Below, in pieces: positions 55,332 through 64,000 of a stretch of 64,000 nt of DNA. Location of the stretch: positions 5,394,001 to 5,458,000 of the forward strand of contig NZ_CP130720.1 of NCBI RefSeq assembly GCF_035984415.1. Reading direction: 5' to 3'. The translations under genes were made by a program, and so were the position numbers. Below the pieces are notes generated by a model, which saw only the letters and a program-made list of their open reading frames with translations, did not search any database and had not been told where the DNA came from. Within the stretch, counting starts at the first letter, position 1. Every line of letters begins with the position of its first letter. Source of the DNA: Streptomyces sp. NBC_01296 (lineage in GTDB: Bacteria; Actinomycetota; Actinomycetes; Streptomycetales; Streptomycetaceae).

Positions 55332-55790
55332 GTGGAGACACTCGAGACGACGGCCGTGGTGCGTCGGCGCATGAGCCGCCAGAAGAGCCGCAACACCGGG
55401 GTCGAGGTTGCCCTGCGCAAGCTGTTGCATGGCTCCGGGCTGCGTTACAGGATTCACCGGCGCCCCGTGAAGGGCGTTCGCCGGGAGGCGGACATCGTGT
55501 TCGGGCCCGCGCGTGTGGCGGTCTTCGTCGACGGTTGCTTTTGGCACGGCTGCCCGGAGCATGCGACCTGGCCTCGGAACAACGCAGACTTCTGGCGGAA
55601 GAAGATCGAAGGCAACCGGAGCCGGGACCTCGACACGGACGCCCGCCTTTCCGATGCCGGCTGGCTTTCCGTGCGGATCTGGGAGCACGACGACCCGGCC
55701 GAGGCGGCGGAGCGGGTCATCGCCACGGTTGCGGAACGTCGTGAGGCGCTCGGTGCCCCTGTGAGAAATGGCCGCAGCGAAGTTATTTGA
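55332..55790 (+). CDS. vsr: Very-short-patch-repair (Vsr) endonuclease
   Basis: 152 residues from GTG 55332; a GACAAT -10-like box lies 8 nt upstream. Vsr features: RRRMSRQKSRNTGVEVALRK (the usual SRNMSxIxxKDTKPE region), catalytic Asp54 in READIVF, and the aromatic VFVDGCFWHGCPEH (metal/intercalating region). It ends with WRKKIEGNRSRDLDTDARLS and the typical WLSVRIWEHD. Vsr nicks at T:G mismatches left by deamination of 5-methylcytosine, so it should serve the cytosine methyltransferase encoded at 59.9-61.2 kb. A restriction role is the alternative in this island. Confidence 0.92.
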   Translation: METLETTAVVRRRMSRQKSRNTGVEVALRKLLHGSGLRYRIHRRPVKGVRREADIVFGPARVAVFVDGCFWHGCPEHATWPRNNADFWRKKIEGNRSRDLDTDARLSDAGWLSVRIWEHDDPAEAAERVIATVAERREALGAPVRNGRSEVI

Positions 55791-57957: not shown

Positions 57958-58937
57958 CCGTTGCCTTCCCCTACACCGTGCTCTTCGGCGACGTCACCGT
58001 CAGAGTCCTGTCCGTGAGGGTCGACGGCGATGAGCTCCCTTACACGATGATCTCCGCGTCGGACAGGACCGTCGCCCTGCACAGGGCAGGGCGCGAGTCC
58101 TGGGAACGGGCCCGGCTCCGGGTCGCAGTCGACTTTCCGCAGGGCGAGTTGGCCGAGGGTCCCTGGTCGGATGTCGTTTTCCTCGCGGTCCTGTCCGAGA
58201 AGTCCACCAATGCCCGGACGACCGCCGTACTGAGGCGGACGGACGACGGGACCGTCGAGGGCACCGTCGAACTGGCCCGGGCGCGGCACCACGACCGGGT
58301 CACGCTGGCCGTATCCGTGGTCGCGACCGTCGGCGACGTTCCGGGACGTCTGATCGGCTCCGCCAAGGACTCCTGGTACGTCGATCTTCGGGCGTCGGCG
58401 CCGGAGCGGCGTCAGGAGATCGAGATCGTCGAGGCCGACTTCCGTGAGGGTGCCCACGAGTGGCTGCGCGCCTACCAGGACTCGGCCTGGGTCGTCGATA
58501 CGACCGGTGACATGCCCACGATCTACCTGAACACCGGTTCCGTGGAGGGGTTGATGGCGCTCCTCCACAGCCGTGGGGGGATGCCGTCTGAGCGCGCACT
58601 CCGGGACATGACCCACAGCATGATTGCCCAGGACGCCTGGATCGCCATGTTCCACAGCGCGGCGGGCGATCTGGATACGGACGAGGACGGGACGCCGATC
58701 ATGCCGAGCGGCTGGCGGGAGGCCGTTCTGCGGTCCATGCTGCCGGACGTGCTGCCGGGGCAGCAGCCCACCGACGCCCTGCACGAAATTCTGCAGCGCC
58801 GGGAGAAGGGCTACGGCTGGGCGGAGCTTCAGACAAGCGTGCAATTCGCGGCGGGTCGGCGCAGCCGAAACAGCCGGCATCTGACGACCGCGGTCCGCTC
58901 GTTGGGCGCCGCAGGCGAGGCAGGAGAGCCCCGGTGA
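57954..58937 (+). CDS. Uncharacterised beta-rich protein coupled to the GHKL ATPase
   Basis: 327 residues from GTG 57954, overlapping the ATPase stop (GTGA) and the next start (GTGA). The N-terminal ~150 residues alternate strands (FPYTVLFGDVTVRVLSVRVD, TVALHRAGRESWERARLRVA). The C-terminal ~180 are helical: a basic-acidic EIVEADFREGAHEWLRAYQD, then LLHSRGGMPSERALRDMTHS and a basic tail. No PD-(D/E)XK, HNH or ATP motif could be found. It should be a subunit or nuclease partner of the ATPase. It does not match any family I can name. Confidence 0.75.
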   Translation: MTVAFPYTVLFGDVTVRVLSVRVDGDELPYTMISASDRTVALHRAGRESWERARLRVAVDFPQGELAEGPWSDVVFLAVLSEKSTNARTTAVLRRTDDGTVEGTVELARARHHDRVTLAVSVVATVGDVPGRLIGSAKDSWYVDLRASAPERRQEIEIVEADFREGAHEWLRAYQDSAWVVDTTGDMPTIYLNTGSVEGLMALLHSRGGMPSERALRDMTHSMIAQDAWIAMFHSAAGDLDTDEDGTPIMPSGWREAVLRSMLPDVLPGQQPTDALHEILQRREKGYGWAELQTSVQFAAGRRSRNSRHLTTAVRSLGAAGEAGEPR

Positions 58938-59878
58938 GCCGGAGGAACCACGATATTCCGCCGACTCTCGGGTTGCTTCCCGACATGGCGGCTGCCCGGC
59001 ACCTGTCCCTGGTGGTGCAGACCGGGGAACAGAGACCTCCGCAGGTCGCGCTCCGCCGGGCATCGGAGGTGCTCGGAAGCGCCCGACGGTGGCAGGCAGA
59101 GCCCGTGCGAGAGCTGGTCGACAAGGCCATGGAGCGTTTCGACGTGCGGCGAACAGAGGCCGACGGCTGGCTGGCCCCGCGCCTGCACGCGACTTTGCGC
59201 ATGACGCGCGCGGAGGCCGCCGACAGCCGCCTGTGGAACTTCCTCGCGATGGTCGTGGCCCCCGACTACGTGGTCTGGCGCCATCGGGGTGCAGACTCGG
59301 AAGAAGATCGGGGAACAGTGCCGGCGGCTCGCTTCCGAGGAGCGCACTACACGCAGGCGTTCTCGCGTCTGTGGTGGGCGGCGGAGCTGTTCCGCAACGG
59401 TTCCGACTACGGCCCGGTGGAGGGCGTGTGCCGGGTTCAGGACTTCCTCCAGACCACGATGCGCATGGACGTGGTCGACCACAGGCCGACGGCCCAGGCG
59501 ATGGTGAGGGTCATAGAAGGCCGCCTTGCGAAGGGCGCCGCGCGCCCCGGGGATCAGGTCAACGCCCTTTCCGCAGCCGTCAATGCGGCGGGGAGCACCC
59601 TGGTGTACGACGTGTTGGCGCCTGACGAGGCACCGGACACGGATGCCCTGCGGGACTGGATCGACGACTCGGAGGACGCTCCACCGGTGCCCTGGGACAC
59701 CCTGCCCGACGGCCCGGACGACGGACGGGTGCTGAGCCGCTCGATCGACGATCTGATCCCGATTTTCGAGCGGCTCCTCGACGAGGCGCCGCTGCGCGAC
59801 CGGTCGAGGCGGCGGAGTGTCCCGGCGGCGCGCCTTCCCGAAGGAGTGTCGCTGGTGAAGGCGACCGACGGACACTGA
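58934..59878 (+). CDS. DUF6339-like protein of the defence island
   Basis: 314 residues from GTG 58934 (GTGA overlap). Helical; the box LWNFLAMVVAPDYVVWR with ARFRGAHYTQAFSRLWWAAE is the pattern of the DUF6339 family as I remember it, found in actinobacterial defence loci. The central VCRVQDFLQTTMRMDVVDHR continues it. The function is unknown. It ends 18 nt from the convergent methyltransferase stop. Confidence 0.7.
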   Translation: MSRRNHDIPPTLGLLPDMAAARHLSLVVQTGEQRPPQVALRRASEVLGSARRWQAEPVRELVDKAMERFDVRRTEADGWLAPRLHATLRMTRAEAADSRLWNFLAMVVAPDYVVWRHRGADSEEDRGTVPAARFRGAHYTQAFSRLWWAAELFRNGSDYGPVEGVCRVQDFLQTTMRMDVVDHRPTAQAMVRVIEGRLAKGAARPGDQVNALSAAVNAAGSTLVYDVLAPDEAPDTDALRDWIDDSEDAPPVPWDTLPDGPDDGRVLSRSIDDLIPIFERLLDEAPLRDRSRRRSVPAARLPEGVSLVKATDGH

Positions 59879-59896: not shown

Positions 59897-61186
59897 TCAG
59901 TCCTGGTCCGCGAGGAATCGGTGGATGGACTCGGCCAGTGCCCGGCCGAGTCCGACGGGCACGGCGTTGCCGATCTGCCGCGCGATGTCCGTCTTCGTCC
60001 CGAACCACTTGAACCTCTCGGGGAAGCCCTGAATCAGCGCCGCCTCGTAGTGCGTGATGGGACGGGGTTCCCGGGGGTGCAAATAGCGCCCCTTCTCCGG
60101 CTTGTAGAACTCGGTGCGAATGGTGACCGAGGGTGAGTTCACTCGAAGACGTCCCATCACATCGCCCGAACCGGAATTGTGATTGTCCCAGCTTTCCGTG
60201 GAAAGATAGTGCTCCTGGCTCTTCAGGCGTCGATATCCGGGATCGGTGGAGAGTACGATTTCGTTCTTTCCGTTGAGTCGGTAGTGGATTCCTCGGAGAT
60301 TCTTTCGATTCCCACCCGGAGGGATCGCCGCGTACCGGGCCCTGGAGAGTTCGACCGGGTTGCGTCCGAAATGGAGATCGGTCGTGAGGTAGTGGCCCGG
60401 TACGCCGTGCGAGAGCGGGGCCTCCCCCTCGCGAGGTTCGCGGAGACCGGTCTCGACCTGAAGCTTTTCGGACCTCTGGAAGATCCCCTTCACCGAAACC
60501 CACCGGGGCTTGCGAGATCCGTCGCCGTCGGGCCGGAAGAGCGCAGCCTGCGCGTCGGCGGCGGCCTCGGACTCGTATCCGTTCTTGTCGTGGGTCGTCT
60601 CGGGGTGGTGGAGCGGCGTCTTGAAGTCCTTGTGCGTGCAGATGACTATGACCCGCTTGCGGGCCTGCGGAACACCGTAATCGGCGGCATTCAGCAGGGC
60701 CGGGATCACGGTGTAGTCGTGCAACGGGTGTCCGGGGGTGTTCGACGCGGCACACAGATCCCGGTACTGGGCGGATTTCAGGAACCGGTCGACGTTCTCG
60801 ATGACGAACAGCTTGGGGTGGACCTTGGAAACGACACGGACGTACTCCTGCCAGAGATCGTTGCGCGGATCGTCGGGATCCTCCTTGCCGAGACCGGAGA
60901 AGCCCTGGCAGGGCGGACCGCCCATGATCACGTCGACCTGCCCCTTGAAGGGCGTGGGATCGAACCGCGCGATGTCGCCGGGGTAGACGTGGGCCCCGCC
61001 GAAGTTGGCCGCGTAGGTCGATGCGGCGGCCGCATCGAACTCGACGGCCGCGACGGAGGTGAACGGATTCTCTCCCACTTCCGGCGCATACGCTCCAAAA
61101 CCGGCAGAAAATCCGCCAGCCCCGGCGAACAGATCCATCACCTTGATCTGTCCGGATTGTGATGTGGGGGGCTGCGTGCTGGTCAT
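59897..61186 (-). CDS. DNA (cytosine-5) methyltransferase, catalytically intact
   Basis: 429 residues from ATG 61186 (a TTG lies 9 nt further upstream). All key m5C motifs are present: I (MDLFAGAGGFSAGF), IV with catalytic Cys93 (GGPPCQGFSGLG), VI (ENVDRF), VIII (PQARKRV) and X (QIGNAVPVGLGRAL). A ~100-residue variable region between VIII and IX should recognise DNA. It is the last gene of the leftward block, 65 nt after the inactive homologue. Its product gives host protection, and its deaminated sites are what the Vsr nuclease repairs. Confidence 0.95.
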   Translation of the reverse strand: MTSTQPPTSQSGQIKVMDLFAGAGGFSAGFGAYAPEVGENPFTSVAAVEFDAAAASTYAANFGGAHVYPGDIARFDPTPFKGQVDVIMGGPPCQGFSGLGKEDPDDPRNDLWQEYVRVVSKVHPKLFVIENVDRFLKSAQYRDLCAASNTPGHPLHDYTVIPALLNAADYGVPQARKRVIVICTHKDFKTPLHHPETTHDKNGYESEAAADAQAALFRPDGDGSRKPRWVSVKGIFQRSEKLQVETGLREPREGEAPLSHGVPGHYLTTDLHFGRNPVELSRARYAAIPPGGNRKNLRGIHYRLNGKNEIVLSTDPGYRRLKSQEHYLSTESWDNHNSGSGDVMGRLRVNSPSVTIRTEFYKPEKGRYLHPREPRPITHYEAALIQGFPERFKWFGTKTDIARQIGNAVPVGLGRALAESIHRFLADQD

Positions 61187-61251: not shown

Positions 61252-62238
61252 TCAGGCGCGGAGTGCCGCGGCGATCGCCGCTCCCAGGGCGTGCCCGACA
61301 GGCGGAGGTGACGCGTGTCCGATTTGGCGATACCGGGCCGTCTTGCGTCCGGCGAACGTCCAGTCCGCGGGGAACGACTGCAAAATGGCCGCCTGTTCCA
61401 CGGTGAGCGCCGGCATGCCCTTTCGTCCCAGGGCGGGGTCCCACACGAAGGACGCGTCCGGCACGGCGTCGGCCACGGTGCCGCCGTCGATGCCCATGCG
61501 GGCCCATGCCGCCTTCGTTCCCTTCGGGCCGAGGTCGCCACCACCGCGGTTCCACGACCCTCCGACGAGGGTGCGGGCCGGCTCGTTCGCCTGTCGGGCC
61601 CATCGATCGGCCTCCGGCCAGCCGCGGGCCTGCATCGAGGAGCCAAGCGCCTCTCCGACCGTTCGATGGTGCTCCACGGTCGGCGCAGGTTCCAGGAACG
61701 CGTCCAGTGCATCGCCCTTGAACGCGACCATGATTCCCTGGAGGCGAACCTGAGGCACCCCGAAATCGGCGGCGTTGAGCACGAACCACCGGTGCCGGTA
61801 CCCGAGGTGGTCCAGCTCCTCGGCAATGTGATCGCGAAGGGGCTGGTACTCCGGCCTGGTCACCAGGTGCGGAACGTTCTCGAGGAGCACCGCTCGCGGC
61901 TGTACGCCGTGCAGCAGCAGCATGGTCGCCTCGAGCAGTCTGGTCTCGGCGTCACTGTCCCTCCGGTTGACGGAGGCCGTCGCCTTGACCCGGGGGAGCC
62001 CGGCAGACAACAGGTCGACGTCATACGTCTGGGTGTGCTCGCACGGATCGAAGGACAGCAGATCCGTCTCGTGCACGTCCCACTGCGGCCGGTTCAGCCG
62101 CAGTGTCTCGCACGCGACGTCCCGGTTGTCGAGAACGATCACCGGATCGAATCCGGCTCGCTCCAGCCCGAGTGTCAGGCCCCCCGCCCCGGAGCACACG
62201 TCCAGGGAGCGCAAGCGTTCCCCTCCCGACTCGTTCAT
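61252..62238 (-). CDS. DNA cytosine methyltransferase homologue lacking the catalytic cysteine
   Basis: 328 residues. Motif I (LDVCSGAGGLTLGLERAGF) and motif VI (LLENVPHL) are good. Motif IV reads SAGLPRVKATAS where active enzymes have GGxPCxxFS: Cys is replaced by Arg83. Motif VIII is PQVRLQG instead of QxRxR and motif X is QIGHASPPPVGHAL with Asn to His. The frame is intact and codons normal, so it is a maintained pseudo-enzyme, not a decaying gene. SAM binding is probably kept. A regulatory or DNA-targeting partner for the active enzyme downstream is the likely role. Confidence 0.9.
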   Translation of the reverse strand: MNESGGERLRSLDVCSGAGGLTLGLERAGFDPVIVLDNRDVACETLRLNRPQWDVHETDLLSFDPCEHTQTYDVDLLSAGLPRVKATASVNRRDSDAETRLLEATMLLLHGVQPRAVLLENVPHLVTRPEYQPLRDHIAEELDHLGYRHRWFVLNAADFGVPQVRLQGIMVAFKGDALDAFLEPAPTVEHHRTVGEALGSSMQARGWPEADRWARQANEPARTLVGGSWNRGGGDLGPKGTKAAWARMGIDGGTVADAVPDASFVWDPALGRKGMPALTVEQAAILQSFPADWTFAGRKTARYRQIGHASPPPVGHALGAAIAAALRA

Positions 62239-62277: not shown

Positions 62278-64000
62278 TCAACCGTGGTCGATCTCCGTGA
62301 CGTCGATGATCGCATCGGCGGTCGGGGAGATCGTCGTGAATTGGACAACCTGGCCGTTTGCACCGCGGGCGGCGGCAGGTGCCACGAACGAGAAGGCCAA
62401 CACGACCTTGCCCGGATCGATGCGCTCGCCGTCGAACGCATCTCGGTGGAGGCGCTCCACGATCGGATAGAGGACCAGTGCCCCCCTCCGCTCCGCGACC
62501 AGGGACTCCGTTGTCGGGTCACCGGAGTGGCCCGGTGCACCGGCGATGCGGTGCGCCACCCCGCGGTGCTTCTTGTCGCTGATCGCGCCGAAGAGGCCGT
62601 GGCGGTCCCGTCGGCGGTCCCGCTCGAACCAGGAGTACCGACGCCCCTCCGAGCCGAGCCTCAGGGCCTTCCCGTGGGCACCTGCGTGCTGGGGCGCGAG
62701 CACCACCCAGTCCTCGACGAGACCGTTCTTCGTGATCTCCTCGATGTAGCGCAGATGGGGGGAGAAGTGATCAGGATGCTCCCATTCCAGGCGGCCGAGG
62801 ATCGACAGCAGGCCGTCGGCAGCGAGCGTTCCGGTCAGCGCGCGGTAGCGGTGGACCGTGTTCTCCTCCGCGAAGTGGTAGGCGTATGCGCTCGCGTCCC
62901 GGTCGAGGGACTCGAGCACGGGCACCCACAGTTCGGTGTTGCGAACGAGGGACGCCTTCTTCTGCGGGTAGGCCGTCGGCTCCTCCCATCGCCCGGCGGA
63001 TCGCACCAGCTTCAGGCGCGCGTTGTACATTTTGTTGGGGCTCGTCGGCTTCAGCCACGGAAGGTGTTGCGACACCAACGGCGGAACCTGTGCCGGTGTG
63101 ATCTGCGGGTATCCGTCCACCAGCACCGCGTAGCGTTCCAGTTCGCCGCGGAACGACTCCTCGTCCAGGCACAGCGCGTGGAACGCGGCGTACAGGTCGA
63201 TCTCCTTGTCGCCCATGGCCTCGCTGCGTCCCAGGTAGAGACGGACCAGGTCACGGTAGCCGCGCCGGAAGCCGAACCAGCGACCCATCTGCATCAACGA
63301 CGACGCGTTTCCGGCCCGACGCCGGAAGTAGGAGATGGTGAGCCCTTCCACGGTGAAGCCGCGGGCGAGCAGTTGACCGCCGATGAGGATCTTCCAGATC
63401 GGCCGCTTGTCGAAGTCGGCGTCGCCGGTCTCCAGATCCTTGTCACCGTTGACGACGATGACCGGTTTGCCGTCCCTGCCGATGCGCATGGCCGCGACAC
63501 CGACGAAGGGCATCAGCTCCTCGTACGTCTCGGGCACGGCATGGCCGTCTGCGCGTACGGCGGACACCGGCGCGATGTCGGTCTCGAACAGCTTGCGGAG
63601 GCGGCCGTGACCGCGGGGCCCGGTGTACCCGGCATTGTCCCAAAGGCCGAGGATCCTGTCGTGCAGCTCTCTGTGGTCGTTCGTGCGCACGGACTCGTGG
63701 ACCAGCATGGTGTGGTGCTCGAAGTGGCCGTCCTGGAGCCCGTCCACACGTTCCCGGTACAGCTTCACGGCGGCCGTGAGGACGAACATGTCCATGGCCT
63801 CCTGAAGACACGTGTCGTCGTCATCGGCGCCGGCGCCGATGACACGGACGTGCGCCTTCTCGTTGGAGTTGGCGAACGTGGCCTCGCCCGGTTCCAGCGC
63901 GGAGTCCAGGTCGTGGAAGTCACGGGCGCCCATGTACCCGGCCGGGCGCGGCAGAGAGAGGATGAAATCCTTGGGGAAGATGTCCTCAGTGTCGCTCGGA
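62278..64000 (-). CDS. Z1-domain helicase-like protein (N-terminal part outside window)
   Basis: The frame is open to the right edge; ~574 C-terminal residues are visible. The visible part opens SDTEDIFPKDFILSLPRPAGY, then the C-terminal SF2-helicase-like region IGGQLLARGFTVEGLTISYF and the motif VI equivalent LMQMGRWFGFRRGYRDLVRL. This is the arrangement of Z1-domain proteins, which couple an SF2 helicase core to the Z1 domain in paraMORC-type restriction systems. Motif I and II must lie beyond base 64000. It is first in a leftward block with the two methyltransferases (39 and 65 nt gaps). Confidence 0.88.
   Translation of the reverse strand, partial: PSDTEDIFPKDFILSLPRPAGYMGARDFHDLDSALEPGEATFANSNEKAHVRVIGAGADDDDTCLQEAMDMFVLTAAVKLYRERVDGLQDGHFEHHTMLVHESVRTNDHRELHDRILGLWDNAGYTGPRGHGRLRKLFETDIAPVSAVRADGHAVPETYEELMPFVGVAAMRIGRDGKPVIVVNGDKDLETGDADFDKRPIWKILIGGQLLARGFTVEGLTISYFRRRAGNASSLMQMGRWFGFRRGYRDLVRLYLGRSEAMGDKEIDLYAAFHALCLDEESFRGELERYAVLVDGYPQITPAQVPPLVSQHLPWLKPTSPNKMYNARLKLVRSAGRWEEPTAYPQKKASLVRNTELWVPVLESLDRDASAYAYHFAEENTVHRYRALTGTLAADGLLSILGRLEWEHPDHFSPHLRYIEEITKNGLVEDWVVLAPQHAGAHGKALRLGSEGRRYSWFERDRRRDRHGLFGAISDKKHRGVAHRIAGAPGHSGDPTTESLVAERRGALVLYPIVERLHRDAFDGERIDPGKVVLAFSFVAPAAARGANGQVVQFTTISPTADAIIDVTEIDHG

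Follow-up and report, generated by a model that had tools for sequence, protein, structure and literature searches.

The pseudoM locus

This analysis concerns pseudoM (P0001), a C5-methyltransferase homologue from the M.NaeI/M.NgoMIV family that is catalytically dead, and the genes with which it travels. The window (the whole stretch analysed) comprises 64,000 nucleotides of Streptomyces sp. NBC_01296 (NZ_CP130720.1, positions 5,394,001 to 5,458,000). The gene is an intact open reading frame of 328 amino acids on the minus strand (61252–62238), and its classification is based upon that frame, the Pfam match, an alignment of 93 orthologues, a phylogenetic tree and an AlphaFold2 model. It forms part of a minus-strand operon that runs in the order GHKL ATPase, DUF4420 PD-(D/E)XK protein, Z1-domain ATPase, pseudoM and actM. 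The first two genes and part of the third lie past the end of the window; the MzaC-like Z1 gene occupies 62278–64000 (minus strand) and continues to ~65235 in window numbering. actM (P0002; 59897–61186, minus strand) encodes the live C5-methylase partner, with PPCQ, ENV, RKR and GNA all intact by Pfam and motif reading. Its ATG at 61186 lies 65 bp downstream of pseudoM, in agreement with an earlier, sequence-only reading of this DNA that had described the pair as a maintained dead methylase next to an active paralogue.

A second set of genes on the plus strand converges on this operon, leaving a gap of 18 bp. It begins with a Vsr-family very short patch endonuclease (55332–55790), followed by a helix-turn-helix (HTH) plus MORC/GHKL-like ATPase (P0004; 55876–57957), then P5 (57954–58937) and finally a DUF6339 protein (58934–59878). 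P5 belongs to a protein family of unknown type, overlaps both of its neighbours by 4 bp and serves as a marker of the MORC module. The DUF6339 protein is similar to PADLOC PDC-M33C, and is fused to pseudoM in a divergent branch of the family. The MORC label of P0004 derives from homology to PADLOC PDC-M33A and from the sequence-only reading, its Pfam match being to the HTH only. The HTH is located at the N-terminus of this protein, which may thus also regulate the locus.

Motifs and structure of pseudoM

pseudoM matches the C5-methylase family PF00145 (E 4e-39) and scores 107.7 bits with the NCBIfam dcm model (cut-off 100.65). The AlphaFold2 model has a mean predicted local distance difference test score (pLDDT) of 91 and a predicted template modelling score (pTM) of 0.90, with only the N-terminus and the loop 86–94 disordered. 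It superimposes on M.HaeIII with Z = 29.5 over 272 residues and a root-mean-square deviation of 2.9, and on M.HhaI with Z = 28; DNMT1 was also matched. By family and by fold the protein is therefore a C5-methylase.

It lacks two features of the active enzymes, the Pro-Cys nucleophile of motif IV and the second Arg of the motif VIII QxRxR. Motif IV reads GLPRVK, with the catalytic Cys position occupied by Arg83 (codon CGG, 61990–61992, minus strand as are all the motifs). In motif VIII (Q163-V-R165-L-Q167; 61738–61752) the first Arg of RxR is retained and the second has gone, and in motif X His308 (61315–61317) replaces Asn so that GNA becomes GHA. These three substitutions were all named in the sequence-only reading and each is seen directly in the sequence, as is the remainder of its description, namely an uninterrupted frame, the glycines of motif I (G17 and G19) and an intact motif VI (E120-N121-V122; 61873–61881). 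The motif I glycines bear on SAM binding, as do D59, which is mostly kept, and the Glu of motif II, which has become Asp. The Asn of ENV holds the Pro of motif IV (PMC4802922). In M.HhaI, loss of the Arg that is missing from motif VIII here (there R165A) strengthened DNA binding fourfold while catalysis fell ~1e5-fold (PMC4802922).

The target-recognition core, residues 221–240 (61519–61578, minus strand), is the most conserved 20-residue window of the family (entropy 0.42), more so than motif I, whereas the catalytic loop 86–100 is relaxed (entropy 1.71). Such a pattern is in keeping with a protein that would have retained binding to a specific site while no longer methylating it. The fixed differences between the dead and live families include E37D in motif II, C83R, Q92R, H231R and R240G.

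Age and selection of the substitution

Arg83, Pro82, Glu120, Asn121 and Arg165 are invariant in all 93 aligned orthologues, of which 80 derive from a pattern scan that favours such proteins; the unbiased check is a transitional set taken from a search of whole genomes. The second motif VIII Arg is replaced throughout the alignment, by Gln in 81 sequences, and the motif X His is present in 85. Arg83 is encoded by six different codons (CGG 41, CGC 21, CGA 12, AGG 11, CGT 7 and AGA 1). The ratio of non-synonymous to synonymous substitution rates (dN/dS) of pseudoM is 0.12 against its closest orthologue and 0.14–0.27 against the others. Close orthologues of the window protein are all found in Streptomyces and other actinomycetes.

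Arg is present at position 83 in all 13 closest homologues from a group of 100 relatives. In the transitional set every member that resides in a cassette lacks the Cys. Two members of the set (L164 and L166), only 39–42% identical, keep the Arg within CGLPRSPYTIAGKQ and retain the rest of the live loop. The basal non-Cys relative (L014/L044, genome G067) has Ser in place of Cys and is neighboured by MORC, P5 and DUF6339. In a maximum-likelihood tree the 31 non-Cys sequences fall on one side of a single branch (support 95/86), and this clade carries Arg save for the one basal Ser, requiring one change on the tree.

pseudoM lost its catalytic nucleophile once, long ago, and Arg has since been fixed under purifying selection. 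A recent loss or a sequencing error of the Cys codon is ruled out by the universal Arg, its six codons and the dN/dS values. Homologues at the same locus do not keep the Cys, and the maintained, nearly full-length dead methylase of the sequence-only reading is borne out.

The live partner methylases

A live C5-methylase is found beside pseudoM, or within its island, at nearly every locus with enough flanking sequence, usually directly downstream on the same strand. It comes from either of two unrelated families, one being that of actM, present in the window, and the other termed actM_b. The motif VI of actM_b is EQV rather than ENV, invariant in 17 aligned members (e.g. L035:1276-2790). A pattern search had suggested that actM_b lacks motif VI, which the alignment corrects. 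Both kinds of partner retain PPCQ or PC, the motif VI Glu (in ENV or EQV), RxR and GNA. Since the Glu is kept in actM_b there is no complementary loss, and the comparison with split and two-subunit methylases drawn in the sequence-only reading is not upheld. Some loci appeared to contain pseudoM without a live methylase (L034 and similar), but in G051 and G380 the partner is located ~17 kb away at the opposite end of a DISARM-type island; this check of distant partners covered the loci other than L053, L058, L060 and L099.

Distribution of the gene set

Neighbourhoods were compared for the 93 loci and by a whole-genome search of 393 Streptomyces genomes, the latter yielding 103 loci of the dead copy, 84 of P5 and 95 of actM_b; the co-occurrence counts ignore shared ancestry. 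The companions of the dead copy are a live C5-methylase, in most cases Vsr, and a group of effectors. These may be MORC-P5-DUF6339, an MZA-like set of GHKL, DUF4420 and Z1 genes or both, or else DISARM-like DrmA/DrmB with a superfamily 2 (SF2) helicase. pseudoM lies within 25 kb at 81 of the 84 P5 loci. Two of the remaining three are G025, where a remnant of it survives (considered below), and G176, where the island contains fragments together with a stop in the actM_b frame and looks decayed. At the third (G362, a genome 78% complete) no dead copy was found.

A dead copy is present at 79 of the 95 actM_b loci, and ten solitary actM_b loci that were examined contain no pseudoM and no MORC, P5, DUF6339, Z1 or Drm gene. 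Most of the 22 dead-copy loci without P5 belong to a divergent type. Loci of this type have MORC- and P5-like genes of their own, and in them one polypeptide combines DUF6339 with the dead methylase, as confirmed by Pfam in three (L041-L043) and suggested for others by the length of their open frames. A single-chain model of the L043 fusion protein (pLDDT 72, pTM 0.55) has no usable interface.

The association extends over several actinomycete families, and that of pseudoM with a live methylase and effectors looks obligate. The sequence-only reading had suggested that pseudoM may read methylation state for the Z1 or GHKL proteins, and its link to these, and to MORC, is supported. The relatives of pseudoM found in viral contigs and phage records are either distant or live. 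Two loci (L172 and L173, in G280 and G343) have, within one island and separated by a few kb, the dead copy of a full cassette and a live, Cys-bearing relative. In two others (L161 and L162, in G216 and G143) a Cys-bearing relative occurs with an actM homologue (58% identical to P0002) and Vsr, outside any cassette; an unknown protein of 653 amino acids is common to both.

Neighbouring endonucleases and a proposed target

NaeI recognizes the sequence GCCGGC. This is also the site of NgoMIV (PMC4081073); the site given for NaeI in that paper differs, apparently by misprint. The nearest live relatives of pseudoM outside the cassettes adjoin endonucleases of this specificity. The relative in Neisseria gonorrhoeae adjoins R.NgoMIV itself (1fiu, E 1e-188), that in Azonexus an NgoMIV relative and that in Rhodococcus a NaeI relative (1ev7), while Streptomyces live relatives with Vsr adjoin NaeI relatives. 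pseudoM is 42% identical over its whole length to the methylase beside R.NgoMIV, with which it shares the recognition core VGGS..GGADLGP. It differs in the Cys to Arg change, the lost second RxR Arg and motif X Asn, the relaxed loop and the absence of a NaeI/NgoMIV endonuclease from the locus.

The partner families have similar neighbours. Relatives of actM adjoin NgoMIV relatives that are 58% and 54% identical to R.NgoMIV, and a NaeI-like gene is adjacent to some solitary actM_b genes. As endonucleases of this group neighbour all three methylase families, it is plausible that pseudoM and either of its live partners have a GCCGGC-type target in common. Using the two enzymes as queries, NaeI/NgoMIV homologues were found at 0 of 101 pseudoM loci and at 9 of 15 live-relative loci (Fisher 6.6e-10, a value that is descriptive only because the counts ignore shared ancestry). 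The dead copy thus occurs where the endonuclease does not. GCCGGC is not avoided in the window, with 133 sites or 0.91 of expectation.

A proposed mechanism and the alternatives

We propose that pseudoM is a GCCGGC-family C5-methylase recast as a non-catalytic reader that guides the effectors, with the live partner marking self; we regard the chances of this being correct as evenly balanced. In such a scheme the live methylase (actM or actM_b) would methylate GCCGGC-type sites of the host, and the recognition region of pseudoM would bind sites identical or closely related to these. Where such a site is unmodified, pseudoM would recruit or license the ATPase effectors, either MORC-P5-DUF6339 with Z1/GHKL/DUF4420 or the DISARM-like helicases. 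It would thereby take the recognition role held by R.NaeI or R.NgoMIV in the simple ancestral systems. For pseudoM itself we infer DNA binding, specificity, sensitivity to methylation and the recruitment of effectors. A more general version, in which unrelated live methylases write GCCGGC while a single conserved dead methylase takes over its reading from the restriction endonuclease and can be combined with ATPase machines of the MORC/Z1 or of the DISARM type, is put forward tentatively, and we would sooner expect parts of it to fail than all of it to hold.

Several observations weigh against a reader of GCCGGC. H231 and R240 lie in the recognition region and are fixed as Arg and Gly, unlike the live family, so the DNA target may have shifted. 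A NaeI-like neighbour is found at only 2 of the 10 solitary actM_b loci, with 34% and 31% identity, and neighbours of the NaeI/NgoMIV type do not prove GCCGGC for every methylase. The G025 cassette (L179:11023-11127) keeps just a 35-amino-acid remnant of pseudoM between actM_b and Z1, while its other genes can still be read. L171 (G387) is an exception among Z1 cassettes, since its Vsr, Z1 and GHKL genes are accompanied by two relatives that have the Cys but not by a dead methylase. Lastly, in a mirror-tree comparison the distances of pseudoM correlate equally with those of actM_b (0.69) and of MORC (0.70), which is also what an accessory to the methylase would give. The G025 cassette is in effect a natural pseudoM deletion strain.

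Dead methylase homologues that are paired with live ones are familiar from DNMT3L with DNMT3A and METTL14 with METTL3. By analogy, DNMT3L having been cited in the sequence-only reading too, pseudoM could form a heterodimer with the live methylase that it stabilizes or steers to its sites, and would not act directly in restriction. Such an accessory would be expected to have a live methylase nearly always at hand, as is the case here, most often as the next gene on the same strand. The correlation with actM_b is also in its favour, as is the GCCGGC-type target apparently common to the two partner families and to the live ancestors of pseudoM. Yet the partners are drawn from two unrelated families, and the solitary members indicate that the actM_b family needs no pseudoM. 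Moreover the fusion of pseudoM is with DUF6339 and not with a methylase, and in the islands of G051 and G380 the two methylases are at opposite ends. We consider the accessory role less likely than the reader role, though a serious rival to it. The two unrelated partner families, the solitary members of a partner family that lack both dead copy and effectors, and the DUF6339 fusion lean the data towards the reader role.

Specific binding without catalysis would suffice equally for a regulator that represses the cassette promoters, or for an occupant that shields host sites, neither taking part in methylation or restriction. The conserved recognition region is in keeping with this, and the HTH of the MORC protein makes control within the cassette plausible. 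GCCGGC is however frequent and undepleted in the window, so that one protein could not shield all the sites, and repression would give no reason to expect a fusion with DUF6339; we think such a function improbable. It is harder still to regard pseudoM as a relic, decaying or selfish, that no longer has a function. The catalytic residues have gone, only a remnant survives in G025 and the G176 island appears to be decaying, but the low dN/dS, the Arg fixed through six codons in 93 orthologues and the strictness with which pseudoM accompanies the cassette in several actinomycete families make this a very remote prospect.

Comparison with known systems

The neighbourhood conforms to the MORC/paraMORC loci of Iyer et al. 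(2008, PMC2292703), a predicted restriction system in which GHKL ATPases occur with a cytosine methylase and Vsr, all of which are present here. That paper, the text of which does not contain the word 'inactive', describes no conserved dead methylase accompanying a live one. The upstream proteins of the operon match MzaB, MzaC and MzaD of MZA weakly but significantly. The NCBIfam MzaC score is 81.7 bits against a cut-off of 1500, and the locus in the window adds the methylase pair, Vsr and MORC-P5-DUF6339. In many relatives the methylase pair is located with DrmA and DrmB homologues as in DISARM, whereas no match to either was found within 20 kb around the window pseudoM. PADLOC calls P0001 DruM2, a component of Druantia type II; no DruE helicase match was found among the island proteins scanned.

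A precedent for a separate site reader is provided by CglI, a Z1 system in which the site is recognized by a distinct protein that then sets off the Z1 ATPase, whereas methylated sites fail to do so (PMC4267653). CglI and NgoAVII share with the window locus a Z1-domain ATPase and a methylase. Their reader is a phospholipase D (PLD)-nuclease/B3 protein, none of which was seen at the window locus, where the dead methylase is proposed to act instead. If this is right then pseudoM would be a prokaryotic C5 counterpart of the dead-partner methylases DNMT3L and METTL14, but with a different job; unlike those, it comes from a different family to its live partner and is tied to defence ATPases.

Cytosine methylases and Vsr at MORC/paraMORC loci are on record already, and so are MZA and DISARM. 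In the open-licence literature searched no such cassette was found to count a conserved, Arg-fixed dead C5-methylase among its constant members, nor was any conserved dead C5-methylase in bacterial defence described there, most subscription papers lying outside that literature. The targeting of DISARM is reported to depend little on sequence. pseudoM is a concrete candidate for the reader that selects targets for MORC/Z1 and DISARM-type systems, with GCCGGC as the predicted class of site. As both Pfam and the NCBIfam dcm model call pseudoM a methylase, the methylase count of about a quarter of the sampled Streptomyces genomes would be too high by one.
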